Source: Negativicutes bacterium | GTDB taxonomy: Bacteria; Bacillota; Negativicutes; Anaeromusales; Anaeromusaceae | DNA: 64,000 nucleotides | NCBI GenBank assembly: GCA_009929485.1 | Contig: SAAJ01000006.1 | Span: 1-64,000 of the forward strand | Direction of reading: 5' to 3' | Shown: piece after piece, positions 8,985 to 57,340 of the stretch | How positions within the stretch are numbered: position 1 is the stretch's first letter | Layout of the letters: each line of letters starts with the position of its first letter | Translations under genes and position numbers: made by a program | The notes under the pieces: model-generated | Seen by the model: only the letters and a program-made list of their open reading frames with translations | The model's database searches: none | Told to the model about the DNA's origin: nothing

Positions 8985-8999
8985 TGAAGCTCCACCTCC

Positions 9000-10412: not shown

Positions 10413-11664
10413 GATTGCCGCTCCTTTCCGACAGAGCGGCCAAAATGCCTAAAAGAAGGAAGTTGGAAACCATGGAACTGCCTCCGTAGCTTAAAAAGGG
10501 CAGTGTAATTCCCGTAAGCGGAAACGCTTTGATAACGCCGGCCAAGATGAGCAGCACCTGTATGGCCATATTGAAAGCTAAACCGCCTCCTAAGAGCAGC
10601 ACAAAAGGCTCCCGTGAACCGCGCACCGTCCAAAAAGCTCGAAAAATCAGCAACAGATAGACGCACAATACGCCGCCGGCGCCGACTAAGCCCCATTCTT
10701 CGCCAATGGCGGCAAAAATAAAGTCGGTATGCACTTCGGGAATCATCGCCGGGTACCCCAGAAAAAGGCCGGTTCCCAAAATATGTCCCCACCCTAAGGC
10801 AAACAAGGATTGCACAATCTGATACCCGCGCCCGGTCGCATCCACCCAAGGATCGAGCCAAATATCCACCCTCGTCTGAATGTGCCCGTAAAAAGTATAG
10901 CAGGCAACCGAGCCTAGCAGAAACAAGGCAAAGCCTACCACCAACCAGTCCCACTTGCCGCTGGCCCAATACAACATAACCAAGGCAATGCTGTAATAGA
11001 GCAGAGCGGAACCTAAATCGCGCTCCACCACCAACACCAGCATGGACATCAGCCATACGCACAGTACAGGCGCAATAAAGCGTCCCCTTGGTAGACGAAA
11101 GGGACCGATGCGAACGAAGTTTTGACAAAGCAATTCGCGCCGTTCCGATAGATAAGCAGCAAAGAAAATAATCAAAAACAGTCTGGCAAATTCTGCCGGT
11201 TGAAACCGAATAGGCCCCAAAACCACCCAACTGCGGTGCCCATTGATATCCACGCCGAAAATCACAGCTGATACCAGCAGAACCAAGCCTATCAGACCGC
11301 AGGTGTATTTGTAGCGCTTCCAAATATGAATCTTTTGAAAGCTGTAACGCGCCAAAAAGAACGCCGCCAGCCCGCAGCCAATCCATACGGCCTGAGAAGT
11401 AACCAAGGCCGGCTTGAGACGTCCCAATAAAATTAAGCCCATTGAACATAGAAAAGCAGGAAAGATGAGATATAAAGCTTCCCAAAAGCGTAATAAGCGC
11501 TGAGAAAGAAAAAAAGCGCCTGACACCGCTGCGGCGATCCCCAGCAATTGCGGCAGTTTGGCTTTACCATCAGGCCAATACAGACTGAGCAGCAAAAAGC
11601 CGCAAAGCAAAAACAGAGCGTTAAACAGCAACAACCGGCTTTCGGCCTGCATTAATCGCTTCAT
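10402..11664 (-). CDS. SEDS glycosyltransferase (FtsW/RodA family)
   Basis: A 420-residue polytopic membrane protein with about ten predicted helices and family motifs, including the GHRSWVVLGPIRFQPAEFARL loop, VERDLGSALL, GRGYQIVQS, HTDFIFAAIGEEWG and a final GITLPFLSYGGSS. SEDS proteins polymerise lipid II into glycan strands with a cognate class B PBP, here encoded immediately downstream. Whether it is FtsW (division) or RodA (elongation) cannot be settled by eye; neighbours resemble the actinobacterial rodA-pbpA pair. The start overlaps the phosphatase stop by 4 bp. Confidence 0.93.
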   Translation of the reverse strand: MKRLMQAESRLLLFNALFLLCGFLLLSLYWPDGKAKLPQLLGIAAAVSGAFFLSQRLLRFWEALYLIFPAFLCSMGLILLGRLKPALVTSQAVWIGCGLAAFFLARYSFQKIHIWKRYKYTCGLIGLVLLVSAVIFGVDINGHRSWVVLGPIRFQPAEFARLFLIIFFAAYLSERRELLCQNFVRIGPFRLPRGRFIAPVLCVWLMSMLVLVVERDLGSALLYYSIALVMLYWASGKWDWLVVGFALFLLGSVACYTFYGHIQTRVDIWLDPWVDATGRGYQIVQSLFALGWGHILGTGLFLGYPAMIPEVHTDFIFAAIGEEWGLVGAGGVLCVYLLLIFRAFWTVRGSREPFVLLLGGGLAFNMAIQVLLILAGVIKAFPLTGITLPFLSYGGSSMVSNFLLLGILAALSERSGNHDE

Positions 11665-12389: not shown

Positions 12390-12396
12390 GTCTTGC

Positions 12397-13657: not shown

Positions 13658-14715
13658 GATTCTTCCTCCTTGGCGCTTTCGTTGCGATTTTGGTTGCGCA
13701 ACTGCCCGCAAGCCGCCTGAATGTCTACGCCCCGTTCCCGGCGTACCGTAACGGCAATGCCGCGAGTCTGCAAAACTTGCGCAAAGGCTTCGATACGCTG
13801 CGGCGACGGCCTAGTAATCCCTCTCTCCGCCACGGCATTGACAGGAATCAAATTCACATGACACAAGCGTCCGCGCAGCAGCATCGCCAACTCTTCCGCT
13901 TGTTGCTGCGAATCGTTCCAATCTTTCATTAGCGTATACTCATACGTAATTCGACGCCCTGTGGCTGCCGCGTACGCATCAGCCGCCGCCAGCAGCGACT
14001 GTAACGGATAGGTTCGGTTCACAGGCATGATTCGCGAGCGCAGTTCATCATTAGGCGCATGCAAGGAGATCGAAAGCGTTAACGGCAGCCCTTCTTGACA
14101 CAGCCGCTCCATCGCCGGCACAACACCGCAAGTGGAAAGAGCCATATGCCTATACCCCAGCCCCAATACTTCCGGATCATGACATAGCTGCACAAAGCGC
14201 AAAACTTCTTCATAATTGTGCAGCGGTTCGCCGGAACCCATAATAACAAAACTGTGCAGCCGTCCAGCCTGCAGCCGATTCAGCTCGCGCTGAGCAAAAA
14301 GAACCTGCGCCAGCATTTCCGCCGCTGTTAAATTGCGCTCCAACCCATGCAGGGTAGAGGCGCAGAACACACAGCCCATGGCGCAGCCCGCCTGCGAAGA
14401 AACGCAGAGGCTGTAACCGTAAGGATGGCGCATCAGCACCGTTTCCACACGAATGCCATCGGCAAAACCCAAAAGGTATTTGCGCGTTTCTCCTGCTGCA
14501 TCGGCTTGCTGCGCAACTAACTCCGGCCAGCCAATTTGAGCCTGCTCCTGCAAAAAAGCACGCTCTTTTTGTGAGATATTGGTCATCTCGGCAAAAGAAG
14601 CCGCACCTTTGTTATATATCCATTCCAGGATCTGCTTGCCTCTGTACTTTTTTAAGCCTAGGGAAAGGGCAGCCGCTTCCGCCTGCTGCCGGGACAGTCC
14701 TAAAAAAGAAATCAT
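13654..14715 (-). CDS. rlmN: 23S rRNA (A2503-C2)/tRNA (A37-C2) methyltransferase
   Basis: A 353-residue radical-SAM enzyme with the family's CxxxCxxC motif (CAMGCVFC near residue 112), the N-terminal helical domain starting MISFLGLSRQQ, and the GSGEPLHNY loop. RlmN methylates A2503 in the peptidyltransferase centre and A37 in some tRNAs through a methyl-cysteine intermediate. Start and stop both overlap neighbours by 4 bp (rsmB and fhaA), so it is translationally coupled within the operon. Confidence 0.95.
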   Translation of the reverse strand: MISFLGLSRQQAEAAALSLGLKKYRGKQILEWIYNKGAASFAEMTNISQKERAFLQEQAQIGWPELVAQQADAAGETRKYLLGFADGIRVETVLMRHPYGYSLCVSSQAGCAMGCVFCASTLHGLERNLTAAEMLAQVLFAQRELNRLQAGRLHSFVIMGSGEPLHNYEEVLRFVQLCHDPEVLGLGYRHMALSTCGVVPAMERLCQEGLPLTLSISLHAPNDELRSRIMPVNRTYPLQSLLAAADAYAAATGRRITYEYTLMKDWNDSQQQAEELAMLLRGRLCHVNLIPVNAVAERGITRPSPQRIEAFAQVLQTRGIAVTVRRERGVDIQAACGQLRNQNRNESAKEEES

Positions 14716-35334: not shown

Positions 35335-36170
35335 GAATTGCCTTTCCCCATTTCCTTGGAACGCTCCGTTGCCGCCACTACAGCATCGATTAAAGCGGCG
35401 CGTACATTGTGACTTTCCAGCGCATGCAAGCCGGCAATGGAAGTTCCCCCAGGCGAAGCAACCATGTCACGCAAAATAGCCGGATGCTGTCCGGTTTGCA
35501 CTACCATCTTCGCTGCACCCAATAAAGTCTGCGCCGCCATGAGAATGGCGTTTTTCCGAGAAAGTCCAACGCGTACGCCAGCATCCGCTAAGGCGTCAAT
35601 CATAAGAAATGCATACGAAGGGCCGCTGCCAGACAAGCCCGTAATGGCATCCAACAAGTTTTCATCCACTTTTTCCACGCGCCCTACGGCGGAAAATACG
35701 GCTCTAGCCGCCTGGTCCGCCTCTTGGTCTGCACGGCTGCCTAAGGCAAAAGCAGTCATGCCTTCCCCTACCGCTACAGGAGTGTTAGGCATGACACGAA
35801 CAACGCGATGCTTGCGAAAATGGCTTTCTAAGAAATCTAACGGAATCCCGGCCGCCACGGATAAGATCAACGTTGTCGGTTTAGTCGCCAAAGCCAAGGT
35901 AGAGATGATTTGTTTCAAGACCTGCGGTTTAACGGTTAAAAACAAAATATCTGCTGCGCCGGTCAAAGCCGAGGCGCTTTCACTGCGCCGCACGCCATAG
36001 GTTTGTTCCAAAACCTGCAAGCGCTCTTCCGAGGTGTCAAATACCAACAGATTTTCTTGCGTCGTCATTTTCTTGTCCAACAGGCCGCGCAGCAGAGCCT
36101 CAGCGATAGCTCCGCCCCCCAAAAAGCCTATGATCTTACCCTGTAAAACTTGTTTCAATTGTTCATCCAT
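35331..36170 (-). CDS. proC: pyrroline-5-carboxylate reductase
   Basis: 279 residues with the N-terminal dinucleotide fold GFLGGGAIAEALLRGLL and the C-terminal GLSGSGPSYAFLMIDALADAGVRVGL and SPGGTSIAGLHALE motifs. It makes proline from P5C with NAD(P)H. The start overlaps sepF by 16 bp, within the division operon, as in several Firmicutes. Confidence 0.95.
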   Translation of the reverse strand: MDEQLKQVLQGKIIGFLGGGAIAEALLRGLLDKKMTTQENLLVFDTSEERLQVLEQTYGVRRSESASALTGAADILFLTVKPQVLKQIISTLALATKPTTLILSVAAGIPLDFLESHFRKHRVVRVMPNTPVAVGEGMTAFALGSRADQEADQAARAVFSAVGRVEKVDENLLDAITGLSGSGPSYAFLMIDALADAGVRVGLSRKNAILMAAQTLLGAAKMVVQTGQHPAILRDMVASPGGTSIAGLHALESHNVRAALIDAVVAATERSKEMGKGNS

Positions 36171-36625
36171 GGTACAACCGTCCTGTCCTGATCATCGTAG
36201 GTGTAAGCAACATCCACATTCGCAGGAGCACAAAGAAAAATATGATGCCCCACTTTTTGAATACTGCCTCCCAAGGCATAGGTGGTGCCGCTCATAAAAT
36301 CAATCATGCGTTTAGCCACTTCTTTGTCCGTGCCTTCAAAATTCACGACTACAGGCTTGCGGTTTTTTAAATAATCCGCCACATGCTGCACATCGTCAAA
36401 GTTAGCCGGCTCTACCACCATGACCTTCATCTGCTTAGAAGCAGCCGTTGCGCCCCCCGTGGCGGCATTCGGCAAATTGACCACATTATTCTGTACCGCA
36501 GAAGGTCTGGCGCTGCGCGGCGCACGTTCTTCAGCCGCAGGCTGCTGCGATTGTTGTTCTTGTTCCTTAGCATCTCCCGGCTCGATCAATCCCAATGTGC
36601 CGCACACTTTTTCTATAAATTTCAT
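36155..36625 (-). CDS. sepF: SepF, FtsZ membrane anchor
   Basis: 156 residues: an N-terminal amphipathic helix (MKFIEKVCGTLGL), a Gln/Ala-rich linker, and the C-terminal SepF domain (about 66-150) with KPVVVNFEGTDKEVAKRMIDFMSGTTYALGG. SepF anchors and bundles FtsZ. No ftsA is visible in the window, so SepF may be the main anchor here; that is inference. Confidence 0.95.
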   Translation of the reverse strand: MKFIEKVCGTLGLIEPGDAKEQEQQSQQPAAEERAPRSARPSAVQNNVVNLPNAATGGATAASKQMKVMVVEPANFDDVQHVADYLKNRKPVVVNFEGTDKEVAKRMIDFMSGTTYALGGSIQKVGHHIFLCAPANVDVAYTYDDQDRTVVPWMNN

Positions 36626-37428: not shown

Positions 37429-38487
37429 TTACCTCTTGTGCATGAAGACCGGCACATCCAGGCTAAAGTCAGGAACCTGTCCTACACGTTCCTTTTTGCC
37501 TTCATTGCCGCCAACTTGTACAGACCGCGCCGAGCGTTGATCGAAACCGGTCGCAATAACCGTAACCCTGACCTCGTCCTGCAAGGTTTCGTCAATGACA
37601 GCACCAAAAATCAAGTTCACTTCCGGGTCTGCAGCCTGTTCAATAATGGCCGCCGCCTCGTTCACCTCAAATAAACTCAAGTTAGTACCGCCGGTGATAT
37701 TTAGCAGCACCCCTTTAGCTCCATCAATGGAGGTTTCCAACAGCGGACTCTTGATAGCCGCTTCCGCCGCCGCAATGGCCCGTCCCTCGCCTGCAGCAAC
37801 GCCTACTCCCATCAGAGCCGAACCGGTATCGCTCATAATCGTTTTTACATCGGCAAAATCCAAATTAATCAGACCAGGAACGGCAATCAAATCGGAAATG
37901 CCTTGAACGCCTTGACGCAGTACATCATCAGCTATCCGAAACGCTTCCATGATGGGCGTTCTCTTGTCCACGACCTGCATCAAACGATCATTAGGAATGG
38001 TAATCAGCGTATCCACGCGTTCTTTCAAATTGGCAATCCCTTTTTCCGCTTGCTTAAAACGGCGCTTTCCTTCAAAAGAAAACGGCTTAGTGACTACGCC
38101 AACTGTAAGGGCCCCTACTTCGCGAGCGCATTCGGCAACAACCGGCGCCGCACCAGTCCCTGTGCCTCCGCCCATGCCCGCGGTTACAAACACCATATCG
38201 GCGCCCCGCAAAGCCTTAATCAGTTCTTCACGACTTTCCTGAGCGGCTAAATCTCCAACCTCCGGGTTAGCGCCGGCCCCTAGACCTTTTGTTAGCTTTT
38301 CTCCGATTTGGATGCGATAAGGAGCCTGTGCCTGCAGCAACGCTTGAGCATCGGTATTTACGGAAATAAACTCCACGCCCTTTAATCCTGCTGCAATCAT
38401 GCGATTGACGGCATTGTTGCCGCCACCGCCTACCCCTACTACTTTAATGGTTGCCAGATGCTCCAACTCCATGTCAAATTCCAACAT
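37429..38487 (-). CDS. ftsZ: cell division GTPase FtsZ
   Basis: 352 residues. GTP-binding signatures are complete: [11 protein letters not shown] near 19, [14 protein letters not shown] near 105 and the synergy loop [11 protein letters not shown] near 206. The C-terminal linker is very short: after the globular domain ends near 315, about 20 residues lead to the terminal peptide [11 protein letters not shown], which should bind SepF or other partners. Strong GGAGGA site. Last gene of ftsQ-DUF881-sbp-ftsZ. Confidence 0.97.
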
Positions 38488-38587: not shown

Positions 38588-38917
38588 CTATTTTTTCAGA
38601 AAATAGCGGCGTAATATCGCCAAATTTTGAAAAATACGCAACCCAAAGGCCAATAATGCTACATAATACAAGTCAATTCCTAAGCGTTCGCCGCTATAAA
38701 CCAAACCAGCCGCCATTAACGCATTAGTAAAAAAACCGGTTACAAATACGCTATTGTCGAATTTCTCATCCGCTCCGGCGCGCAACCCGCCAAAAACAGT
38801 ATCTAAGCAAGCCAAAAGAGCAATCGACATATACTTGGCATACTCAACCGGAACGGTTCCAGGAAGCAGAGAACCCACAAATAACCCCAAACATAAGCCT
38901 GCAATCGGAAGGTACAT
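38588..38917 (-). CDS. sbp: small basic protein, DUF1290 (Sbp)
   Basis: 109 residues, about three hydrophobic segments, starting MYLPIAGLCLGLFVG, with the YMSIALLACLDTVFGGLRAG motif typical of DUF1290 membrane proteins. The family sits between DUF881 proteins and ftsZ in Bacillus and Clostridia; no function is established. The start overlaps the preceding stop (TAATG). Confidence 0.85.
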   Translation of the reverse strand: MYLPIAGLCLGLFVGSLLPGTVPVEYAKYMSIALLACLDTVFGGLRAGADEKFDNSVFVTGFFTNALMAAGLVYSGERLGIDLYYVALLAFGLRIFQNLAILRRYFLKK

Positions 38918-39612
38918 TACTGTGCGCCCCCTTCCTTAGCCGGTTTGGCGTATTCAAACCGGAAAGCGCCTTTATAAGCGGGAACTGCTACGCGATCCGT
39001 CTGCTTGATGGTCACCTGAATACCCCAGAACTGCAAGGTTTCAACAACGCCGCCGCGCATGCGCAAAGCGTTTTCCAATGTTTTAGGTTCGCCTATGGCA
39101 ATGATCTCATAGGGCGCCGACGAACGGGTATTATTCACCGACAATGTCGGACCGGCGCAGCGTATTTCCGACGAAGCGATAAGCCGCTGCTCATTAATTG
39201 ACATGGCTTCCGCTCCAGCAGCCCAAAGTTCATTAATTACTTTAAGGATATCATCATCATGAATAACATATAAGTTCGGATTTTCCCCCGGCTTGGATGG
39301 CCGTTTGCTGTCATTGATCGTTACCACAACACCAGGGCCTGTCAAATCAACGACGCCTGCCCCCATCTGAATCAGCTGCATTTCTTTCGAAGTCCGCCCA
39401 CCTAGGGCCTGTTCGCGCAACTCTTTTACCTGGTTGTTCAACGAGTCTCGTTCCTTTTCCGTTTGCAGCAGTCGTTGCGACAAATCCTCCACTCGCTGCA
39501 CTGACAACGCTGACCGCATATCTTCTGTTGTTTTAAACTGCACCGCCAGCATAATCCCCAAGATAAAACAAACCAAAGCAATGGCCCATTGCCCTTGTTT
39601 AATCGACAACAC
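38917..39612 (-). CDS. DUF881-family membrane-anchored protein
   Basis: 231 residues from a GTG with GAAGGGAG upstream. One N-terminal transmembrane helix (about 10-25), a coiled coil (about 35-75), and a globular extracytoplasmic DUF881 domain with VVVTINDSKRP and IHDDDILKVINELWAAGAEAMSIN. Commonly found downstream of ftsQ in Firmicutes; function unknown. A TTG 12 codons upstream lacks a ribosome binding site. Confidence 0.85.
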   Translation of the reverse strand: MLSIKQGQWAIALVCFILGIMLAVQFKTTEDMRSALSVQRVEDLSQRLLQTEKERDSLNNQVKELREQALGGRTSKEMQLIQMGAGVVDLTGPGVVVTINDSKRPSKPGENPNLYVIHDDDILKVINELWAAGAEAMSINEQRLIASSEIRCAGPTLSVNNTRSSAPYEIIAIGEPKTLENALRMRGGVVETLQFWGIQVTIKQTDRVAVPAYKGAFRFEYAKPAKEGGAQ

Positions 39613-39651
39613 CGTTCTTGACTCCCTTCTTGTGTTTCCTCTTTTCAAGCT

Positions 39652-40395
39652 TTAAGGCTTGAATTTGATTACCGGTGTCGCAAAACTGACATCGAAATAA
39701 TCCACTCGTTCTAACTTATCTCCCAATTGTTCCACAAGTTCTTGTACTTTCTGAGCTTTTTCCGCCATTTTCGTTCCATCACCCAAGCGAACCTTCGCTC
39801 CAGAAAGCAAATATAACTGCATTTTCTCGGAAGTTACAAAGTGCACTTCCGATACTTTTTCTAACGTTTTCGCGTCCAAACGGTCTAAAAACTGCAGCGC
39901 CATGATCACCTGCGGCTGGCTCAGCTTATCGCCAATATACTCTTGCCCCGCGGAAATGCCAGTAATAAAGGGCCATCGCATATCTTTAAGATAACGCTGC
40001 ACATTGAGTACCGTACCGTCACGATCTATTGCTAAAATACCATACGCTGCCGTTACATACGCTAACGGACGCCTTTCTTCCACAGCAATGCGCAAATTCC
40101 AGGGAAATTTCCTCTCCACTTCAGCCCGGCGAATGCGCAAATCCTGCTCTAAACGATGTTGCAGAAGTTCCGGTCTCACTCGCAGCAAATTGACCGGTTC
40201 TCCAATCCCTGCAATCACCAAAAGCTCCTCCTTGGAAAGTTCCTGCAACCCTTCGACTTCTACATGTCCCAGGGCCAACCAAGAAGAGCCGCTGAGCCAC
40301 AAGCCGCCAAAGCCGAGAAAGCAAAAAAGCAAGCCCAAAAGCAGCAGCGGCCAAAAGCGAAACCTTCTTTTAGGAGAAATAGCCCCTGCGCCCAT
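39652..40395 (-). CDS. ftsQ: cell division protein FtsQ/DivIB
   Basis: 247 residues: a cytoplasmic N-terminus, a transmembrane helix (about 14-36), a POTRA domain (HVEVEGLQELSKEELL) and the FtsQ beta domain (RKFPWNLRIAVEERRPLAYV). It connects the divisome to septal wall synthesis. First gene of the ftsQ-to-ftsZ unit, with its own promoter. Confidence 0.93.
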   Translation of the reverse strand: MGAGAISPKRRFRFWPLLLLGLLFCFLGFGGLWLSGSSWLALGHVEVEGLQELSKEELLVIAGIGEPVNLLRVRPELLQHRLEQDLRIRRAEVERKFPWNLRIAVEERRPLAYVTAAYGILAIDRDGTVLNVQRYLKDMRWPFITGISAGQEYIGDKLSQPQVIMALQFLDRLDAKTLEKVSEVHFVTSEKMQLYLLSGAKVRLGDGTKMAEKAQKVQELVEQLGDKLERVDYFDVSFATPVIKFKP

Positions 40396-40559: not shown

Positions 40560-41498
40560 TTATTTCCGCGTCAACGCTTGCAATAAAATGCGCTCGCACA
40601 GCGCTTCAAAAGAATGGCCTTCAGCCGCTGCCGCTTTAGGCACCAAGCTGGTTTCCGTCATGCCGGGAACGGTATTAACTTCCAATACATAGGGGCGCAG
40701 TTTTTCATCCAGCATAATGTCCGCTCTGGCAACGCCAAAACACCCTAAAACCTGGCAAGCCTGCACTGCCGCCTGTTGGACCATCAGCGTCACATGCGGC
40801 GGCAATTGGGCGGGGACAATATATTCCGAGGCTCCCTTAGTATATTTGGATTGATAATCATATACGCCGGATTTCGGAGCAATCTCAATAACCGGCATAG
40901 CCTCGGCGCCTGCAGTATCACACCACACAGGGACCGTAATTTCTCGACCGATAATGCACTCTTCCAATAATGCAGTTTTTCCGTACCGGAACACTTCTTC
41001 CAAGGCGGCCTGCACATCTTCCGCTTTGTGTACCATGCACACGCCAATGCTGGATCCTTGGGCAGCCGATTTAATAACCACAGGCAAGCCAAATTGTTTG
41101 ATAACTGCTTGGGCCAAAGCCGCCTTGTCCTCTTGCTCTTGCAGCACCGCAAACCGCGGTGTTGGCACATCAGCGCCTTGAAACATCATTTTAGACGCCA
41201 CCTTGTCCATAGCCAGCGCACTAGCCAATACGCCAGAGCCAGTATAAGGCAGCTGCTTTAATTCCAGAAGCCCTTGCAGCGTCCCGTCTTCGCCATACTT
41301 GCCGTGAACGGCGACAAAAACTACTTCCGCGCCGCAATCGGCCAATTGTTTTTCGATCCGCGCCGGTTCCAGATCAATTCCCACTGCTTGATACCCCAAG
41401 CGCTGTAACGCCGTCAAAATAGCATTGCCAGTCCGCAGCGAAACCTCACGCTCCGTGGATGGACCTCCCATGACTACGGCAATCTTCTTTTCCTTCAT
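40560..41498 (-). CDS. ddl: D-alanine--D-alanine ligase
   Basis: 312 residues, ATP-grasp enzyme. It begins KKIAVVMGGPSTEREVSLRTG; the central KSAAQGSSIGVCMV loop, EVNTVPGMTE near the C-terminus and ARADIMLDE are family residues. It makes the D-Ala-D-Ala dipeptide for peptidoglycan. The start is the ATG before KEKKIAV (AAAGGA upstream), not the longer charged extension. It ends the murE-to-ddl block. Confidence 0.95.
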   Translation of the reverse strand: MKEKKIAVVMGGPSTEREVSLRTGNAILTALQRLGYQAVGIDLEPARIEKQLADCGAEVVFVAVHGKYGEDGTLQGLLELKQLPYTGSGVLASALAMDKVASKMMFQGADVPTPRFAVLQEQEDKAALAQAVIKQFGLPVVIKSAAQGSSIGVCMVHKAEDVQAALEEVFRYGKTALLEECIIGREITVPVWCDTAGAEAMPVIEIAPKSGVYDYQSKYTKGASEYIVPAQLPPHVTLMVQQAAVQACQVLGCFGVARADIMLDEKLRPYVLEVNTVPGMTETSLVPKAAAAEGHSFEALCERILLQALTRK

Positions 41499-41534
41499 TT
41501 TCCTTTGCCTTCTTTCCTTGGGATCCTTCATTCA

Positions 41535-42917
41535 TTAGCACTTATGGTTTTTCAACAAAGCCGCCAATTCTTCTCCTGCGCGCCAAATATCGCCGGCTCC
41601 CATGGTCATAATCAAATCACCCTGCTGCATATGTTTCATGGCAAACTCAGCCAACGCAGCTTTATCCTGCACATAATAAACTTCTTGACCTTCTTTAGGC
41701 ACAACCGCTTGGAACAGCATTTCTCCGTTTACCCCTTGAAGCGGCGCTTCACCTGCCGAATACACGTCGGTCAGCACCAATACGTCCGCTGCGCCAAAGG
41801 CCGCGCCAAATTCGCGATATAACAGCTGCGTCCGGGAATACCGATGCGGCTGGAATAAACAAACCAGCCGTTTCGGCTGGGTTTGTCGCGCCGCAACGAG
41901 AGTCGTCGCCACCTCGGTAGGATGATGTGCATAATCGTCCACAATCCAGACGTTTTCATCGCGGTATTTTGTCTGAAAACGCCGTTTCGCACCTCGAAAC
42001 TCCAGCAAAGCAGCTGCAACGCCCGCAAAAGGCAAGCCAGCTTCTAACGCAACGATAATAGACGCCAATGCATTAGAAACATTGTGTCGTCCCGGTACCG
42101 TCAACGTCACCTCGCCTAAGCAGTTTTCCTTATGCCATACTTCAAAAGTAGTGCAACCAGTTTCCATGCGAATATGTAAGGCTCGGTATTCTGCATCAGA
42201 ACGTTCCAGACCATACGTAACTACTTGTCGGTTCAAGCGGGGCAAAATCATTTGTATATTTTCATTATCCAGGCAAACCACGGCTTTGCCAGTTTCAGGC
42301 AAGCGCTCTACAAAATCAACAAACGCCTGCAATACATTTTCCATTGTGCCGTAGTGATCCATATGATCATTTTCTATATTGGTAATGACAGCCATCTGCG
42401 GCGAAAGTTTGAGGAACGAACCGTCGCTTTCATCCGCTTCCGCCAACAAATAACGTCCGCGGCCCCATTTGGCATTACTCGCCAGATAATCCACATCGCC
42501 GCCAATAATCACCGTGGGATCTGCGCCGCAACGCTCAAAGATCAACCCCAGCATGGAAGTTGTTGTCGTTTTGCCGTGAGCTCCGGCTACGCCGACTCCA
42601 TCTTGTTCCAGCATAAATGCCGCTAATACATCGGCTCGATGCAACACCGAAAGCCCCTGTCTAAGGGCAGCCGCAAGCTCCGGATTATCGGCATGAATGG
42701 CCGTAGATACGACCACTGCGCCTGCACCGGCTATATGTTCTTCCTTATGACCAATATGCACAACAGCTCCAGCCGCGCGCAAGCGAGCCAAGGTAGCTGA
42801 ATCCTGCGCATCCGAACCGGATACTTGCATTCCTTTTTCCAAGGCAATAGTGGCCAAAGCGCTCATGCCTGCGCCGCCAATGCCGATAAAATGATACTTA
42901 GTTGTTGATGAAAGCAA
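41535..42917 (-). CDS. murC: UDP-N-acetylmuramate--L-alanine ligase
   Basis: 460 residues from TTG (AGGAGG upstream). Motifs: YHFIGIGGAGMSALA, the ATP loop GAHGKTTTTSML, and DDYAHHPTEV near 300. It adds L-Ala to UDP-MurNAc. It follows murG and precedes ddl; murB, which often follows murC, is not seen here. Confidence 0.96.
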   Translation of the reverse strand: MLSSTTKYHFIGIGGAGMSALATIALEKGMQVSGSDAQDSATLARLRAAGAVVHIGHKEEHIAGAGAVVVSTAIHADNPELAAALRQGLSVLHRADVLAAFMLEQDGVGVAGAHGKTTTTSMLGLIFERCGADPTVIIGGDVDYLASNAKWGRGRYLLAEADESDGSFLKLSPQMAVITNIENDHMDHYGTMENVLQAFVDFVERLPETGKAVVCLDNENIQMILPRLNRQVVTYGLERSDAEYRALHIRMETGCTTFEVWHKENCLGEVTLTVPGRHNVSNALASIIVALEAGLPFAGVAAALLEFRGAKRRFQTKYRDENVWIVDDYAHHPTEVATTLVAARQTQPKRLVCLFQPHRYSRTQLLYREFGAAFGAADVLVLTDVYSAGEAPLQGVNGEMLFQAVVPKEGQEVYYVQDKAALAEFAMKHMQQGDLIMTMGAGDIWRAGEELAALLKNHKC

Positions 42918-42950: not shown

Positions 42951-44054
42951 CTACTTAACCAATTTAACAGCCCATTCGGCAATATCCCTGGCCGCTTGCG
43001 GGCGTCCCAACGCCCTGCTGGCTTCCGCCATGGCGGTCAATTGCTGCGAATCGTCCAACAAGGCCAGCACGGTTTCTTGCAAAAGGCCTTCTTCCAATTG
43101 TGCGTCGCCCAACACTTTAGCTGCTCCGGCATTAGCCAGTACACGAGCATTCCACTCTTGATGATTTTCCGCCGCATACGGGTACGGCACTAAAATTGCC
43201 GGTACGCCGCGCACGGTCAACTCCGCAATTCCCAGCGCCCCAGCACGAAACACGGCTAAATCCGCTACCGCCAAGGCCGCCGGCATTTCATGCAAATACG
43301 GACGAACAAAAAGGCGCGGAGCTTCTTCCAGCCCACGTCGCCGCAGTTCGTCAACTACGTTATTATACTCGTTTTTCCCTGTGATGTGCAACACTTGCAC
43401 ATCCTCCCGCATCGCCAAGGCAGCGTGTACTTCAATCATCGCCTGGTTAATGCTGCGGGCGCCCCGGCTGCCGCCGGCAACTAGGAGGGTCTTGCAAGAA
43501 CTGCTCAGTCCCAATTGTTTCAAGCTTTCCTCCCGCTGCGCTGTCAGCACTTCGCGGCGCACCGGATTGCCTGTCACCGCCTGGCGGCAACGGCCGGAAA
43601 AACGGCTGGAAGCCTCGGCATAACCCAAAGCCACGCCATCGACAACATGCGAAAGAAGTCGATTGGTAATGCCTGCAATGGCGTTCTGTTCCTGAATCAA
43701 CGTCGGAATTCCCAACAAAAATGCAGCCAACAACACCGGTCCGCAGACATAGCCCCCAGTCCCCACGACCACTTGCGGCCGAAATTGACGCAATAAGCCT
43801 ATCGACTGCCATACGCCGCCCAAAGCGGTTGCTGCCGCCTGCATACTTGCAAGCAAATTTTTCCGGTTCAACCCGCGGGAAGCTACAGTAGCAAAGGGAA
43901 TTCCAGCCTTAGGAACCAGCTCCGCTTCCAAACCGCTTGCTGTACCAATGTATAAAAGCTCGGTTCCCGGATGCAAATGGCAAATTTCTTCGCCAATCGT
44001 CAGCGCCGGATAAATATGTCCGCCGGTTCCACCGCCGGACAATACTACCTTCAT
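42951..44054 (-). CDS. murG: UDP-GlcNAc:lipid I N-acetylglucosaminyltransferase
   Basis: 367 residues, starting MKVVLSGGGTGGHIYPAL, a glycine-rich donor loop. Other motifs: GGYVCGPVLLA, GGSRGARSIN and the PYPYAAENHQEWNA sugar-nucleotide site. It makes lipid II at the inner membrane face. The ATG has AGGAGG upstream and overlaps the murD stop by 4 bp. Usually ftsW lies between murD and murG; here there is no gap. Confidence 0.96.
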   Translation of the reverse strand: MKVVLSGGGTGGHIYPALTIGEEICHLHPGTELLYIGTASGLEAELVPKAGIPFATVASRGLNRKNLLASMQAAATALGGVWQSIGLLRQFRPQVVVGTGGYVCGPVLLAAFLLGIPTLIQEQNAIAGITNRLLSHVVDGVALGYAEASSRFSGRCRQAVTGNPVRREVLTAQREESLKQLGLSSSCKTLLVAGGSRGARSINQAMIEVHAALAMREDVQVLHITGKNEYNNVVDELRRRGLEEAPRLFVRPYLHEMPAALAVADLAVFRAGALGIAELTVRGVPAILVPYPYAAENHQEWNARVLANAGAAKVLGDAQLEEGLLQETVLALLDDSQQLTAMAEASRALGRPQAARDIAEWAVKLVK

Positions 44055-45427
44055 GCTTGTCCTCCTGTTGCCGCCTCCAGCGCCGCAACACATTCTTTAA
44101 AAAAGCGTCCGCGCTCTTCAAAACTAGAAAATTGATCGAAACTGGCACAAGCCGGCGACAACAACACCACTTCCGCAGGTTGCGCCAGAGCTTTGGCTAC
44201 TTGTATCGCCTCTTCAACGCCAGAAACAAGACGAATCTGCTGCACTCCCGCTTGCCGGGCCGCCGCTTCAAAACGTTCCGCCGCCGCGCCAAACAAAAGC
44301 AAGTAACGAGCCTTATCCTTAACAAGCTTCATCATGGTCTGTAAATCTGTATTCTTATCCTTGCCTCCCGCCAGAAGAATAATGCCGGTATCAAAGGCTT
44401 CCAGAGCCTTAATGGTCGATTCTGGATTGGTAGCCTTAGAGTCGTTATAATATTTTACATTATCAATTTCAGCCACTAATTCAATGCGATGCTCCACACC
44501 TTCAAAGGAGCGCAGCACTTCACAAATCACCTGCGGAGTCACGCCTGCCACATACGCCATAGCCGCCGCAGCCAGCACATTTTCCACATTATGAGCTCCA
44601 GGAAGGCCCAACTCCGCTGCATCCAGCAACGATATTTCCGCCCCTTGCCAACGAATCACCATTTTCCCAGCGCGAACAAAGGCGCCTTCAGGCAATACTT
44701 CCAAACGACTGAAAAAAAGCACCCGTCCCGGGGCTCGTTTAGCCATATCACGCGTGATCGGGTCATCATAATTAAGAACAACAACGTCTTCGGCGCCTTG
44801 TTTATTAAAGACCCGCTCTTTGACACTGCTATACTGCTCCACTGTACCGTGGCGTTCCAAATGGTCCGGCGTCACATTCAATACAGCTGCCACATACGGG
44901 CGAAACTCCTGTACGCTTTCCAATTGATAACTGGAAATTTCAGCTACTGCCATGTCATTAGCGCCCAAGTCCAGCACCTGTTCCGAAAGGCCTGCGCCAA
45001 TATTTCCGCCTACAGCCGTTTTAAAGCCGCTGGCCTTGATCATTTCTCCTAAAAGAGTGGTCGTCGTAGTCTTACCGTTTGTTCCTGTGATAGCCAGCAT
45101 AGGCGCCTTGCAAAGCTGATACGCAATCTCCACTTCGCTAACTACCGGAATCCCTCTTTGCTGCGCCTTACCCACGTACGCCGCTTTCAATGGAATTCCA
45201 GGAGACACTACTAGAAAATCAGCGTCTTCCAGGCACTCTTCCGCTTCCGCACCTAGTTGCAGGTGAATTCCTTCATTCGCCAGATTCAACACCTGCAGTG
45301 GCAGCTGCTCCGCTTCCTTGCCGTCCACCAATGTCACATCCGCCTGTACACGCCGTAACGCTTTGGCCACCGTTACGCCACTCACGCCTGCACCTAATAC
45401 AACAGCCTTCTTTGCTGCTATTTCCAT
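44051..45427 (-). CDS. murD: UDP-MurNAc-L-Ala--D-Glu ligase
   Basis: 458 residues with VVLGAGVSGVTVAKAL, the ATP loop ITGTNGKTTTTTLLGE and the KATNPESTIKALEAF segment. It adds D-Glu to UDP-MurNAc-L-Ala. It sits between mraY and murG with a 4-bp overlap into murG. Confidence 0.96.
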   Translation of the reverse strand: MEIAAKKAVVLGAGVSGVTVAKALRRVQADVTLVDGKEAEQLPLQVLNLANEGIHLQLGAEAEECLEDADFLVVSPGIPLKAAYVGKAQQRGIPVVSEVEIAYQLCKAPMLAITGTNGKTTTTTLLGEMIKASGFKTAVGGNIGAGLSEQVLDLGANDMAVAEISSYQLESVQEFRPYVAAVLNVTPDHLERHGTVEQYSSVKERVFNKQGAEDVVVLNYDDPITRDMAKRAPGRVLFFSRLEVLPEGAFVRAGKMVIRWQGAEISLLDAAELGLPGAHNVENVLAAAAMAYVAGVTPQVICEVLRSFEGVEHRIELVAEIDNVKYYNDSKATNPESTIKALEAFDTGIILLAGGKDKNTDLQTMMKLVKDKARYLLLFGAAAERFEAAARQAGVQQIRLVSGVEEAIQVAKALAQPAEVVLLSPACASFDQFSSFEERGRFFKECVAALEAATGGQA

Positions 45428-45455: not shown

Positions 45456-46424
45456 TCAACGCAAGCCGCTCATCCACAAAACGCCCAACGCCGCCAAAGC
45501 AGCGCCTACGCCGCTTAACCAAAACACCAGAACCACCTTGCGCTCCGACCAGCCTCCCAATTCGAAGTGATGATGCAAGGGACTCATCCGAAAAATGCGC
45601 TTCCCTGTCGTTTTAAAGGAAAACACTTGCAAAATAACAGATAAAGCCTCCGCTACAAAAACAAGGCCCACAATACCCAACAGCAGTTCTGTCTTAGTCA
45701 ATACCGCCAGAGCCGCCAAGGCGCCTCCCAAAGCCAATGAGCCAGTGTCGCCCATGAAAATCTTCGCCGGATACGCATTGAACCACAAAAATCCTAAGCA
45801 GGATCCCGCCAGAGCCACCGCAAATGCGCCAAGCCCTTCGTGCCCAAAGTAAGCGGCAATAACCGCATAGCAAACACTGGCAACCGTCATGGTTCCCGCC
45901 GCTAAACCATCCAAGCCATCCGTCAAATTCACAGCATTGCTGGCGCCAACAAGAATAAAGAATAAAAAAGCATAATAACCCCAGCCTAAATCAAGCATTT
46001 GCGAAGTTCCCGGAAGCCATACTTCCGTGCCTCGCTGCAAATAGACCTGTGCTACATACGCCAGCACTAGCGCCAGCGCCGCCTGTCCCAAAAGCTTCTG
46101 TTTGGCAGTCAGCCCTAGATTTCGCTTCAAGACCACTTTAATATAATCATCACTAAAACCAATCAAGCCATGCCCTACAAAAACCAAGTACACTACCAGC
46201 ACTTCCGGACGCCAACCGCCAAAAAGCAAGGTAGCTACCGTCATGGACAAAAGCATCAGCAAACCGCCCATCGTGGGCGTTCCCGCTTTGGCCAAATGAC
46301 GCTGGGGTCCTTCTTCGCGAATACTCTGTCCGAATTTCAGCTTATGTAAAATCGGTATTAAAATCGGCCCTGCCGCCAAAACAACTGCCATGCCGGCAAG
46401 GCCCGGCAAAATCCACTCCATCAT
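45456..46424 (-). CDS. mraY: phospho-MurNAc-pentapeptide transferase
   Basis: 322 residues, about ten membrane segments. Family motifs: [11 protein letters not shown] near 49, [23 protein letters not shown] near 88, [13 protein letters not shown] near 161, [12 protein letters not shown] near 222 and [11 protein letters not shown] near 281. It forms lipid I on undecaprenyl phosphate. The start may be the first or second Met. Confidence 0.96.
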
Positions 46425-46459: not shown

Positions 46460-47833
46460 TCAACGCAAGCGCTCCAGAATCGCTTCCATATGCATCCCGC
46501 GCGAGCCTTTCACAAGCACCGTATCACCCTTGCGCAAAATGCTTCGCAAGGCGTATTGCGCCTCGCCATGATCATTGCAGGCCAAAGCAATTTCCGCTCC
46601 TGCCAGCCTGGCTGCTTCCGCAATATAGCCAGCCAAAGGGCCTACGGTCACAACATGACGTATGCCGGAAGTAACCAAATGAATACCGATAGCTCGATGC
46701 GCTTCAATAGCAGCATCCCCCAATTCCAGCATATCTCCTAAAACAGCCACAACCCGTCCCTGGGCGATGGCAGCCACGGTGTCAATAGCCGCTCGCATCG
46801 AGAGCGGACTGGCGTTATAGGCGTCATTCACCAAAAGATACCGCGGCGTCTGTTCAAATTCGAAGCGCATGCCGCTCGGCTCATATTGCTGCAGCGCGGC
46901 AGCAATATCCGCCAGCGACAATCCCGCCGCTTCTCTCGCTATCGCAACAGCAGCCAAGCTGTTATATACATTGTGTACACCTACCGCAGGAATCTCCATT
47001 ACTTGCCGCTCATCTTTATAGCAGCATACATAACGAATACCTTGGGCTGAATAATGGACATTCTCCGCCCACACGTCCGCCTTTTCATTCAAGCCATAAG
47101 AAACTACACGGCAGGGAGCTTGCGCCGCCATAGACCTCACCAGAGCATCATCCTGGTTCAATACGGCTATGCCGTCATTGGGAAGCGCCTGCACCAGCTC
47201 CGCCTTTGCTTTAGCAATATTGGCCACAGACCCGAGAAGTTCCAAATGCGTTTCTCCTACATTGGTTACAATGCCCTGTGTCGGCCGGGCAATATCCGCT
47301 AGTTCCGCGATCTGCCCCAAGCCTCTCATGCCCATTTCTACTACAGCCGCTTCATGAGAAGGTTCCAACGATAACAATGTTAGGGGCAGGCCAATTTCGT
47401 TATTGAAATTTCCCTTTGTTTTCAATACATTAAACCGAGCCCCTAAGGCTGCAGCCACCATATCCTTCGTACTGGTCTTCCCATTAGAGCCAGTTACGGC
47501 AATAACAGGAATGGCAAAACGCAGCCGATGAAAGCGCGCTAAATCCTGCAACGCTTTACGCGTATCGGCAACCAGTACAACCGGGAGAGATACGTCTTCT
47601 AACAATGCATCTTCACGCTGCACCACCAGAGCCGCCGCGCCAGCCTGTATCGCGTCAGCCAAAAAATGATGGGCGTCAAAGGACTCCCCGGCCAAGGCTA
47701 CAAAAAGCTCGCCCGGCTGCAACGCGCGCGTATCGGTTGCAACCCCTTCGCAAGGCTGTTGCTCACCTTTTCCCCGTACTACCTTGCCGCCTGTGGCCTC
47801 CACTATCTCCGCTAATGTAAACCGTGCACTCAT
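46460..47833 (-). CDS. murF: UDP-MurNAc-tripeptide--D-Ala-D-Ala ligase
   Basis: 457 residues from the ATG with AAAAGGAGG upstream. ATP loop AVTGSNGKTSTKDMVAA; NDAYNASPLSMRAAID and VLGDMLELG are the ligase motifs. It adds D-Ala-D-Ala to complete the pentapeptide. It follows murE by 2 bp. Confidence 0.96.
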   Translation of the reverse strand: MSARFTLAEIVEATGGKVVRGKGEQQPCEGVATDTRALQPGELFVALAGESFDAHHFLADAIQAGAAALVVQREDALLEDVSLPVVLVADTRKALQDLARFHRLRFAIPVIAVTGSNGKTSTKDMVAAALGARFNVLKTKGNFNNEIGLPLTLLSLEPSHEAAVVEMGMRGLGQIAELADIARPTQGIVTNVGETHLELLGSVANIAKAKAELVQALPNDGIAVLNQDDALVRSMAAQAPCRVVSYGLNEKADVWAENVHYSAQGIRYVCCYKDERQVMEIPAVGVHNVYNSLAAVAIAREAAGLSLADIAAALQQYEPSGMRFEFEQTPRYLLVNDAYNASPLSMRAAIDTVAAIAQGRVVAVLGDMLELGDAAIEAHRAIGIHLVTSGIRHVVTVGPLAGYIAEAARLAGAEIALACNDHGEAQYALRSILRKGDTVLVKGSRGMHMEAILERLR

Positions 47834-47835
47834 CT

Positions 47836-49326
47836 TTATGCCTCCTTTTGCCGCAGCCATTCCTGAATTATTTCCTTATCATCAAAATGAATTGTCTTGT
47901 CTTTTAAAATTTGATAGTTTTCATGTCCTTTGCCAGCTACTAAAATAATATCGCCTGGCTGAGCCAATTCCAAGGCCCGTCCAATGCCTTGCCGGCGATC
48001 CACTATCTTTTCATATTGCACCTCCGGGCGCAACTCTTGTAAAATGCCCACTTCGATTTCACTCAAAATGGTTTCCGGCTCTTCCGAACGAGGATTGTCC
48101 GAAGTGGCGATGACCACATCGCTATACTTTGCAGCCAGCGCCCCCATCAAAGGACGTTTCGTGCGATCCCGGTCGCCGCCGCAGCCAAATACGGTCACCA
48201 CTCTGGCAGGCTTCATCTCCCTGGCTGTACGTAAAATATTTTCCAACCCGTCCGGAGTATGCGCATAATCAACAATAACAGCAAATTCCTTACCGCCGTC
48301 TACCCGTTCAAAGCGCCCAGGCACGCCGGGAAAGGAAGCCAAGGCTTCTTGGATTACCGGCCAAGACACGCCTTCGCTTAAAGCCGCTCCTATGGCTCCT
48401 AATGCATTGTAAACATTAAATCGTCCCGTGAGAAGCAGTTTAACCGGCCATGCTTCGCCTTTTCGTTGCAACAGGAAGCGCGCACCTTCCGGCGTCACCT
48501 GAACATTTTTAGCCAGCAAGTCCGCTTGGGCATCCTCAATCCCATACGTAAGTATGTCACACGCAGCCGCGTCCCGCATGACATCCGCCGCTGGATCATC
48601 CGCGTTGATTACCGCATGCTTGCCTGTTTTAGAACCAGCCTGCGAGGCAAGAGAAAACAAGCGAGCCTTAGCTTCTGCATACTCGCCAAGAGTTTTATGA
48701 AAATCCAAATGATCTTGAGTCATATTGGTAAACATAGCCATATCAAATTCACAGCCGGCAATACGGTCCAGGGCTAAAGCATGTGAAGATACTTCCATGA
48801 CGACATAATCCATGCCGGCTTCCGCCATACGCCACAGCAACGCCTGAAGTTCCACTACATCAGGCGTCGTATTCTTCGCAGGAACCTTTTCATCGCCTAT
48901 GAGCGACTGAATCGTTCCAATCAAGCCTACTCGATAGCCAGCCGCCTCCAAAATAGCTTTTAATAAATAGGTTGTCGTAGTTTTGCCGTTTGTACCGGTA
49001 ACTCCCAACAAACGCAGTTTTTGTGTCGGCCTATCATAAAAAAAAGGAACAATGCGTCCCATCGCTTCACGTACATCCGGAACCACGAGCACAGCAGCTC
49101 CTGAAACCGTTAGCGGCCTTTCCGCCAAAAGAGCCACAGCCCCTTCAGCTACTGCCTTTTCGGCAAAATCATGCCCATCTACTTTACTGCCCGGCAAACA
49201 AATAAAAAGGCTTCCCTGTGTTACTTGTCTGGAGTCCTGCGTAATGCCAGTGATTGCAGCCTCACAAATCCCTTGGTATTGGACTTCCGGCAATAGCGCT
49301 ATAATTTCTGACAGCATCTTTTGCAT
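47836..49326 (-). CDS. murE: UDP-MurNAc-L-Ala-D-Glu--meso-DAP ligase
   Basis: 496 residues. ATP loop GVTGTNGKTTTTYLL near 110 and the DNPRSEEP motif near 403, which in the family reads diaminopimelate, fitting the presence of dapF. It starts its own unit: a terminator and promoter separate it from ftsL, where ftsI/spoVD usually lies. GAGGAG precedes the ATG. Confidence 0.96.
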   Translation of the reverse strand: MQKMLSEIIALLPEVQYQGICEAAITGITQDSRQVTQGSLFICLPGSKVDGHDFAEKAVAEGAVALLAERPLTVSGAAVLVVPDVREAMGRIVPFFYDRPTQKLRLLGVTGTNGKTTTTYLLKAILEAAGYRVGLIGTIQSLIGDEKVPAKNTTPDVVELQALLWRMAEAGMDYVVMEVSSHALALDRIAGCEFDMAMFTNMTQDHLDFHKTLGEYAEAKARLFSLASQAGSKTGKHAVINADDPAADVMRDAAACDILTYGIEDAQADLLAKNVQVTPEGARFLLQRKGEAWPVKLLLTGRFNVYNALGAIGAALSEGVSWPVIQEALASFPGVPGRFERVDGGKEFAVIVDYAHTPDGLENILRTAREMKPARVVTVFGCGGDRDRTKRPLMGALAAKYSDVVIATSDNPRSEEPETILSEIEVGILQELRPEVQYEKIVDRRQGIGRALELAQPGDIILVAGKGHENYQILKDKTIHFDDKEIIQEWLRQKEA

Positions 49327-49358
49327 CAGTACATCTCCTCTGCATTTACTTGCTATTA

Positions 49359-49388
49359 ATTGTAACGATTACTATAAAAAAAGTCCAA
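49359..49388 (-). promoter_or_regulatory. promoter of the murE-ddl block
   Basis: TTGGAC (49383-49388) and TACAAT (49359-49364) on minus, 18-bp spacer, about 33 bp before the murE start and right after a terminator. Confidence 0.7.
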
Positions 49389-49410
49389 TCACGAAAGTAT
49401 GACAAAATAC

Positions 49411-49438
49411 GAAAAAGCAACCGTACTGGCTGCTTTTC
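49411..49438 (-). terminator. terminator after ftsL
   Basis: On minus, AAAAGCAGCC and GGTTGCTTTTT (one G-U pair) form a stem with a 5-nt loop ending in a T-run, about 30 nt past the ftsL stop. Confidence 0.72.
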
Positions 49439-49467
49439 ATAACTCTATTAATAAAAAATATAATAGC

Positions 49468-49923
49468 TTAGCGATTAGTACCTGCTTGCGCTGTCGCTCC
49501 CTTTAAGTTAGCTTTTACACGATCCCAAAGATTGTCCTGTGCTTCCACTGAAACGGCACTCGGAGCCGTCTGAGGATTAATACAGTACAAGTTTTGCGGC
49601 GTTACCATGCCTAACTCACGCGTAGCTACGGCTTGAATACGCTGTGGCGCTTTGAGTTGGGCAATTTCCAACTGCAATTGTTCGTTCTCTTTTTCCAATG
49701 ACATAATTTGGGATTTTGTCTTTACAACCGAATAGCCGGTCGTAACGACGAATTCACTGCAAACTGCACCAACAATGGCCAACACTGCTATGCCGCAAAC
49801 AAGCAAGCCTACTCTCGCTCGCAAACGAACATCGCATTGCGGTTGCTTACGAAAGGTTTTTGCAGGTGTATGTTGCTGTTCTTCTACAGGATGTTTCCAC
49901 TCCTGTCTTTGTTGAGCCAACAT
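49468..49923 (-). CDS. ftsL: FtsL-like septum protein
   Basis: 151 residues: a charged cytoplasmic tail, one transmembrane helix (about 35-57), then a coiled coil with leucine heptads (SQIMSLEKENEQLQLEIAQLKAPQRIQAVA). This is the bitopic FtsL/DivIC topology, and the position right after rsmH is the FtsL position. Sequence divergence in this family makes the name rest on topology and context. Confidence 0.82.
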   Translation of the reverse strand: MLAQQRQEWKHPVEEQQHTPAKTFRKQPQCDVRLRARVGLLVCGIAVLAIVGAVCSEFVVTTGYSVVKTKSQIMSLEKENEQLQLEIAQLKAPQRIQAVATRELGMVTPQNLYCINPQTAPSAVSVEAQDNLWDRVKANLKGATAQAGTNR

Positions 49924-49945: not shown

Positions 49946-50887
49946 TTACCTGCCCAGTTTTTCAGCTATACGTAATTTGGCGCTTCTCGCCCTGGGATTG
50001 TTCTCCAGTTCCTGCTCTGAAGGCGTAACTGCCTTGCCTAGCAACCGCACTTGCGGCTGGTGGCCGCACATGCATATAGGAAGCTTAGGCGGACAAATAC
50101 ATCCTTTCGCCGCCGCAGCCAACGCCTGTTTCGCTGCACGGTCTTCTAGCGAATGAAAGGTAATAATGGCCAATCTCCCGCCAGGGAGTAAATGTTCAAT
50201 AGCAGTACGAAACGCCCCCTGCAAAATTTCCAGTTCTTGATTTACTTCAATCCGAATAGCCTGGAAAGTGCGTTTAGCCGGGTGCGGCCCGTCTCGCCGG
50301 GCGGCGGCTGGAATCGCTCGTTTGATAATGTCCACTAATTGACCGGTTGTCTCTATAGGGGCCGTCTGCCGAGCGGTTGCAACAAAGGAAGCAATTCGCT
50401 TAGCCCAACGCTCTTCCCCAAACTCTTTAATAATGCGCGCCAATTCCTCTTCCTCATACGTATTGACCACATCATAAGCGCTGCGCGCCTGCTGCGGATT
50501 CATCCGCATATCGAGAGGCGCATCCTGTTGATATGAAAAACCACGCTCTGCAACGTCTAACTGATGCGAAGAAACACCGAGGTCAAAAACAATGCCATTG
50601 ACCTTTTCTACGCCTAATTCCGCTAAAACATCGCCGAGACGAGAAAAATTACTGTGTATTAAATCCACTTGACATGGCACACCGCTCAGTTTTTCTCTGC
50701 CGGCCGCCAACGCCGCCGGATCTTGATCAATACCTATGAAGCGACCTTGTGCGCTCAATTGGTCCGCCAAGTATTTGGCGTGGCCAGCTCCGCCCAAGGT
50801 GCAATCTACATAAATTCCTGCAGGATCCTGCATTACCGCCTGCACGGTCTTTTCTAGCAATACGCTGACATGGTGAAACTCTTGCAA
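49946..50887 (-). CDS. rsmH: 16S rRNA (C1402-N4) methyltransferase
   Basis: 313 residues from TTG with AGGAGG at 6-nt spacing, giving LQEFHHVSVLLEKTV; an ATG 7 codons upstream overlaps the mraZ stop but has a poorer site. SAM motif DCTLGGAGHAKYL, GIVFDLGVSSHQLD and HSLEDRAAKQ are present. It modifies the ribosomal P site. Second gene of the dcw cluster. Confidence 0.95.
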   Translation of the reverse strand: MQEFHHVSVLLEKTVQAVMQDPAGIYVDCTLGGAGHAKYLADQLSAQGRFIGIDQDPAALAAGREKLSGVPCQVDLIHSNFSRLGDVLAELGVEKVNGIVFDLGVSSHQLDVAERGFSYQQDAPLDMRMNPQQARSAYDVVNTYEEEELARIIKEFGEERWAKRIASFVATARQTAPIETTGQLVDIIKRAIPAAARRDGPHPAKRTFQAIRIEVNQELEILQGAFRTAIEHLLPGGRLAIITFHSLEDRAAKQALAAAAKGCICPPKLPICMCGHQPQVRLLGKAVTPSEQELENNPRARSAKLRIAEKLGR

Positions 50888-50904
50888 AACGAACCTCCTC
50901 GTCA

Positions 50905-51336
50905 TCAAATCCCCAGATCAATCAACTCCTGGGTCAAATCCGATACGATCGGAGCCAAGGCCTCATTATAGGCCTGCCACGCATCTTGACTCCAAATTTC
51001 GATACGATTTGATACACCGATGACGACAACTTCTTTTTCTAAGCGTGCGTGTTCACGCAACACGGGCGGAAGTAAAATTCTTCCTTGTTTATCATACCCT
51101 ATTTCGGCGGCGCCTGCAAAGAAAAATCGCGCAAAAGCTCGGGCTTCCGGCTTAGCTAAGGGTAATTTTTTCAATTTTTCTTCTAAAACACTCCATTCAG
51201 ACAAGGAATAACCAAACAAGCAGGCATCAAGTCCCTTGGTAAAAACAACGGTTTCTCCCAGTTCTTCGCGGAATTTAGCAGGTAAAAACAGGCGACCTTT
51301 GGTATCTACAGTATGTTGATACTCTCCCAAAAGCAC
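50905..51336 (-). CDS. mraZ: MraZ transcriptional regulator
   Basis: 143 residues from a GTG (VLLGEYQHTVDTKGRL), matching the usual MraZ start and length; a GTG three codons upstream lies inside the operator. Two AbrB-like repeats carry DTKGRLFLPAKFRE and DKQGRILLPPVLRE. MraZ binds spaced GTGG repeats before its own gene and controls the dcw cluster; such repeats are seen here. Confidence 0.95.
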   Translation of the reverse strand: MLLGEYQHTVDTKGRLFLPAKFREELGETVVFTKGLDACLFGYSLSEWSVLEEKLKKLPLAKPEARAFARFFFAGAAEIGYDKQGRILLPPVLREHARLEKEVVVIGVSNRIEIWSQDAWQAYNEALAPIVSDLTQELIDLGI

Positions 51337-51344
51337 CTTTATCA

Positions 51345-51369
51345 CCCACTTTCCACCACTTTAACCCAC
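51345..51369 (-). promoter_or_regulatory. MraZ operator (three GTGG boxes)
   Basis: On minus, GTGGG (51365-51369), GTGGT (51355-51359) and GTGGG (51345-51349) recur at exact 10-bp intervals immediately before the mraZ start. This matches the known MraZ binding pattern. I could not fix the promoter itself; the remaining AT-rich gap to 51560 shows no clear gene. Confidence 0.85.
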
Positions 51370-57263: not shown

Positions 57264-57340
57264 TGGTGGGGTTAAACGGGCTCGAACCGCTGACCTCATG
57301 CATGTCAAGCATGCGCTCTAACCAACTGAGCTATAACCCC
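57264..57340 (-). tRNA. tRNA-Val (GAC)
   Basis: On minus: acceptor GGGGTTA with TAACCCC, D arm GCTC/GAGC, anticodon stem CATGC/GCATG with loop TTGACAT (anticodon GAC), T arm with TTCGAGC, and an encoded ACCA end. All cloverleaf stems pair. Confidence 0.97.

Follow-up and report, generated by a model that had tools for sequence, protein, structure and literature searches.

The dcw cluster of Firmicutes has been surveyed in 494 genomes by Shrestha et al. 2023 (PMC10693644), who state that the Firmicutes ancestor sporulated and, for Negativicutes, that loss of the SEDS and class B PBP (bPBP) genes from this cluster is correlated with loss of sporulation. As for MurA, previous studies reported that murA lies within the dcw cluster in 5 of the 9 Firmicutes treated in PMC8871954, that MurAB supplies precursors for the spore cortex of B. 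subtilis (PMC12251134), and that the number of MurA paralogues is not correlated with Spo0A across Firmicutes, Negativicutes having mainly MurAA (PMC9600426). The core finding reported below is already known from the survey of Shrestha et al., and we add two small features to it: the murA of the dcw cluster is absent wherever the SEDS/bPBP pair is absent, and a terminator after ftsL occurs mainly in pair-less clusters.

The window (the whole stretch of DNA analysed, 64,000 nucleotides) carries a dcw cluster on the minus strand in the order mraZ, rsmH, ftsL, a gap, murE, murF, mraY, murD, murG, murC, ddl, ftsQ, DUF881 and ftsZ, with sepF downstream (Table 1); the gene names rest on family scans, except that of ftsL, which was named by position. 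No bPBP or SEDS gene is present from mraZ to ftsZ, as in the non-sporulating type of dcw cluster without SpoVD/SpoVE, and none of the matches of the genome to PF00905, PF01098, MurB_C, murA or ftsA falls inside the cluster in the family scans. The cluster thus lacks ftsI, ftsW, murA, murB and ftsA. Apart from murA, these absences had been listed in the earlier note together with the preserved order of the remaining genes, and family scans and gene order agree with it on both points. No scar was seen at the SEDS site or the murA site of the cluster: with its start at MKVV, murG shares 4 bp with murD, and murC and ddl are spaced by 3 bp. Elsewhere in the window, a tRNA-Val (gac) gene at 57264-57340 (minus strand) is the sole tRNA gene reported by ARAGORN.

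Table 1. Features of the window, in the order of the minus strand.
Feature	Position	Strand	Remark
mraZ	50905..51345	-	family scan
rsmH (mraW)	49946..50908	-	family scan
ftsL	49468..49923	-	named by position; just below family cut-offs
gap ftsL-murE, the spoVD place in spore-forming relatives	49327..49467	-	141 bp
terminator-like hairpin, 11 pairs, loop 5, T-rich tail	49412..49438	-	kept in 4/4 genomes of the genus
promoter-like site for murE, 9/12 match, spacer 17	49359..49387	-	count alone not above chance
murE	47836..49326	-	family scan
murF	46460..47860	-	family scan
mraY	45456..46424	-	family scan
murD	44051..45427	-	family scan
murD/murG overlap, the spoVE place in spore-forming relatives	44051..44054	-	scar-free
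murG	42951..44054	-	family scan
murC	41535..42917	-	family scan
murC/ddl junction, the second-murA place in spore-forming relatives	41532..41534	-	scar-free
ddl	40560..41531	-	family scan
ftsQ	39652..40395	-	family scan
DUF881 protein	38917..39648	-	family scan
ftsZ	37429..38487	-	family scan
sepF	36155..36625	-	family scan
another class B PBP (9000-10412) and SEDS (10402-11664)	9000..11664	-	FHA-PP2C-SEDS-PBP-PASTA kinase block

The gap runs from the end of ftsL to the beginning of murE, two minus-strand genes, and the claim that it lies exactly where ftsI/spoVD should be is borne out, as no class B PBP is present between the two genes. A terminator-like hairpin and a promoter-like site for murE are found in it, and over the scan as a whole both kinds of element occur at chance level (2 promoters vs 2.3 expected; 4 terminators vs 2.3, sd about 1.5). 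An element like the murE promoter occurs at 7 of the 81 dcw loci counted below, 4 of the 7 coming from the genus of the window, and 13 times in 1.6 Mb. It is also present in the spoVD-murE spacer of three spore-former loci (L048, L053, L054), which weakly suggests that the murE promoter is old rather than new. Hence, of the new murE promoter proposed in the earlier note, the promoter-like site stands, while its newness is weakly disfavoured.

Searching the rest of the genome, we found seven matches to PF00905, namely an FtsI-type bPBP (contig C58), MrdA (C36), the class B PBP of the window and four others, and three to PF01098, namely FtsW (C119), RodA (C36) and the SEDS protein of the window. 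An FtsW-type SEDS outside the cluster, characteristic of the non-sporulating dcw type, is therefore present on C119, and MurB and MurA are encoded on C51 and C9. Of the four proteins for which a genome-wide search had been proposed (class B PBP, FtsW, MurB and FtsA), only FtsA is missing. The genome has no match to TIGR01174 (ftsA) at 1e-40, and FtsA under another name was sought among the four PF14450 matches above cut-off, which comprise EutJ, two MreB and a distantly related protein of 716 aa; this last, the best candidate, scores 89 bits vs the TIGR01174 cut-off of 175.85. With ftsA absent, the sepF product may serve as the membrane anchor of FtsZ. Across the class, 35 of 200 genomes match TIGR01174 at 1e-40, and at the counted dcw loci 25 of 31 with the SEDS/bPBP pair do so and 1 of 50 without it; a divergent FtsA may escape this model, G020 having a 392-aa open reading frame before ftsZ with no match. 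The ftsI and ftsW genes lie on different contigs, ftsI adjoining hypB and alr and ftsW adjoining trmB. Five of the 30 genomes searched (G019, G066, G106, G120, G135) have the dispersed ftsW and ftsI side by side, and in a sixth (G012) one 92-aa open reading frame separates them. The observation named beforehand as speaking against a lost pair, an ftsI/ftsW pair elsewhere with conserved division neighbours, was thus made only loosely, the two genes being on separate contigs here and adjacent in the five genomes.

Outside the cluster, the window itself holds another SEDS/class B PBP pair (Table 1). In the trees described below, this pair stands apart from both the dcw pair and the dispersed FtsI/FtsW. 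It belongs to a minus-strand block at 7068-13711 that encodes an FHA-like open reading frame, FHA, PP2C, SEDS, class B PBP and a PASTA Ser/Thr kinase; the pair is possibly under phospho-control. Similar blocks are present in G007 (L126) and G016 (L133).

To name the copies, we relied on trees of bPBP and SEDS proteins (54 rows each, quick method, SH-aLRT support), from the first of which the broken FtsI of G187 was omitted. In the bPBP tree, the 16 dcw proteins fall into a single clade (support 100) and 28 dispersed FtsI into another (99), 15 of them from spore-formers and 13 from the others, including the genome of the window; in the SEDS tree, 16 dcw and 31 dispersed proteins likewise form separate clades (99 and 100). 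Both FtsI (C58) and FtsW (C119) group with the second, non-dcw copies of spore-formers. Therefore the statement that this bacterium has lost its septal synthase pair is not supported. Among single loci, L120 (G187) has FtsI as two consecutive open reading frames, each matching (a frameshift, a split gene or a sequencing error), L118 and L119 are two FtsW-type paralogues of one genome (G020) that stand together in the SEDS tree, and L129 (G007) and L131 (G018) are further class B PBPs of about 560 aa in a clade of their own (2 rows), matches with open frames like these being found mostly in spore-forming genomes. The matches of G063 include no dispersed FtsI.

Family scores point the same way without splitting the copies cleanly, so that the names of FtsI and FtsW rest on the trees. 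Two dcw bPBPs of spore-forming relatives score 750 and 748 vs the TIGR02214 (SpoVD) cut-off of 688, and two dcw SEDS score 479 and 496 vs the TIGR02615 (SpoVE) cut-off of 448.8, both of the latter exceeding the ftsW cut-off as well (422, 421). FtsI (C58) stays below the SpoVD cut-off (567), yet spoVD is its best model; FtsW (C119) scores 285 with the spoVE model, under its cut-off, and 319 with TIGR02614 (FtsW), its best model, whose cut-off is 337.5. The dispersed copies of one spore-former are also below the SpoVD/SpoVE cut-offs. Since the dcw proteins scored pass the SpoVD/SpoVE cut-offs, and FtsI and FtsW of the window's genome do not and group with the second copies of spore-formers, we conclude that what left the cluster was most likely spoVD and spoVE.

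These trees also bear on how the cluster came to its present state. If the dcw ftsI and ftsW had simply moved out, the former cluster genes would be those found today on C58 and C119, and one FtsI-type and one FtsW-type copy outside the cluster is what such a move would leave; however, both fall with the second copies of spore-formers and outside the dcw clades, as does MurA, which makes relocation extremely unlikely. It also seems very unlikely that the septal pair was truly lost and that the septum is built either by the other pair of the window or by a class A PBP. That such a third SEDS/bPBP pair is present, and that Clostridioides difficile uses a class A PBP according to PMC10693644, would favour this account, but the genome has an FtsI and an FtsW that belong to the dispersed clades. 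Moreover, in 9 of 30 genomes no more than two SEDS match at 1e-40 (G187, G008, G013, G106, G048, G064, G066, G135, G181), and since each of these nine has one SEDS in the dispersed FtsW clade, the dispersed type persists in genomes that lack the window-type SEDS.

An assembly gap or misassembly between ftsL and murE might be suspected of an assembly in 134 contigs, but we give it practically no weight: the three other genomes of the genus share the ftsL-murE junction, which in one case lies on a single 3.5-Mb contig, and G003 (L027) shows this junction in a complete genome of the genus. We therefore return to the loss of spoVD and spoVE from the cluster and to its relation to sporulation.

The comparison of dcw order across Negativicutes, which the earlier note had suggested, proved to be the right check. 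We located rsmH in all 200 genomes of the class, picked loci by family from a part of those places, and read 84 loci including those of the genus and the window, of which 81 were countable: 31 with the pair (15 families) and 50 without it (12 families), no family occurring in both groups. In the loci with the pair, bPBP comes after ftsL and SEDS after murD (one locus stops short of the SEDS site), and the pair-less loci gave no bPBP or SEDS call within the stretches read. The pair is present in 31/31 loci with SpoIVA and in 0/50 without. SpoIVA was found in 40 of the 200 genomes and in none of the four of the genus, and Spo0A in 16/16 SpoIVA-bearing genomes among 33 searched; both markers, the two on which sporulation was judged, are absent from the genome of the window. 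Outside the 81 loci, G008, whose cluster is split over contigs, agrees with this match, and G026 (92% complete) and G032 (93%) disagree in having dcw spoVD and Spo0A with no SpoIVA match, which may be due to missing contigs. Spo0A tracks the pair less tightly, being kept in three genomes that lack both SpoIVA and the pair (G009, G013 and G016); sporulation may have been lost more recently in these three. Mapped on trees of seven dcw proteins, the state of the pair changes four times (45 rows; at least three changes forced by well-supported branches) or three times (80 rows).

Further, murA follows the pair. Where murC was read, murA comes after it in 30/30 loci with the pair and 0/49 without. 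The MurA tree separates 21 dcw from 20 dispersed copies (support 100), with MurA of the window's genome among the dispersed ones. At 1e-60, two MurA copies were found in 15 of 16 genomes with SpoIVA and one in 14/14 without; the sole exception among the 16 spore-formers, G014, has a single MurA at 1e-60, which is the dcw copy. In the open-licence papers searched, we found no statement that Negativicutes lose the dcw murA along with spoVD/spoVE.

The strict terminator scan (within 120 nt; 3.8% of 479 coding windows called in calibration) gave a terminator after ftsL in 37/50 loci without the pair vs 4/31 with it, and after spoVD in 1/31. With terminators of 11 kcal or stronger the counts after ftsL are 37/50 and 0/31. 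These 37 loci span 11 of the 12 pair-less families, and the 13 misses belong to f9 (7), f13 (4), f28 (1) and f30 (1). The hairpin of the window gains weight from this frequency, far above that in coding windows, and from its being common to all four genomes of the genus, so that the terminator claimed after ftsL is upheld. A scan between genes gave 19/21 after ftsL in the first set, which includes the window, and by the same rule 20/29 in the later loci, where 4.8 were expected from shuffles; several of the nine misses look as if the murE start had been placed too far upstream. A scan over a fixed 180 nt was dropped as too lax, since in spore-formers it called a terminator after ftsL in 23/31 loci and after murE in 14/31. 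After ddl, the pattern is reversed and the difference weak (strict scan: 11/27 with the pair vs 6/44 without; between genes: 13/18 with 6.5 from shuffles, and 5/8 with 2.8). The test for independence has only three independent pairs with lax and strict calls alike, and fewer than six pairs cannot reach 0.05. A repeated, separate gain of the terminator after ftsL is nevertheless suggested, in that some terminators may have arisen separately because the state of the pair changes at least three times on the dcw trees. Nothing was found in the open-licence papers on a terminator after ftsL in pair-less clusters.

Gene presence and order, the trees, the family scores and the match with SpoIVA were observed directly; the enzyme roles in this organism and the direction of change are what we infer from them, with loss as the direction following the published view of a sporulating Firmicutes ancestor (PMC10693644). 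The gap is very probably a remnant of sporulation loss, the dcw spoVD and spoVE having been lost and dispersed FtsI/FtsW serving division. In the dcw cluster of spore-forming Negativicutes, SpoVD follows ftsL, SpoVE follows murD and a second MurA follows murC, and septal synthesis in growing cells would fall to the separate dispersed FtsW/FtsI pair. The lineage of the window, which presumably no longer sporulates given the absence of SpoIVA and Spo0A, would have lost all three dcw genes and kept the rest of the order, and its division synthases would be the dispersed FtsI (C58) and FtsW (C119), together with FtsL, FtsQ and FtsZ of the dcw cluster. As a more tentative extension, possible but somewhat doubtful, each loss of sporulation might edit the dcw cluster alike: spoVD, spoVE and the dcw-specific murA would go as a module, a terminator would be gained after ftsL, and murE onward would run on its own promoter, partly the one from the former spoVD-murE spacer. 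On this reading, the dcw murA would encode an enzyme dedicated to making precursors of spore peptidoglycan. The main account guards against the wrong, if tempting, inference that this bacterium has no septal synthase. Pending tests, genes named 'ftsI/ftsW' in the dcw cluster of Negativicutes are best taken as spoVD/spoVE. In addition, the dcw murA that goes with the pair and the terminator that marks the place of the lost gene lead to a simple genetic test of the role of this MurA in spore wall synthesis.

Among known systems, the MurAA/MurAB/MurAC paralogues of Firmicutes (PMC9600426) are comparable as a second MurA that comes and goes, but unlike the pattern given there, in every counted locus of Negativicutes the presence of the dcw murA coincides with that of the pair and SpoIVA. 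The main text of PMC10693644 has no words beginning with 'murA' or 'terminator', and both features are described here. The genes missing here correspond to the dcw SpoVD/SpoVE of sporulating Firmicutes in their place in relatives, in the trees and in family score; these SpoVD/SpoVE are absent from the window's genome. The closest likeness is to the dcw cluster of non-sporulating Firmicutes, Negativicutes included, described in PMC10693644: a cluster without SEDS/bPBP, an FtsW type outside it, and a loss tied to the loss of sporulation.
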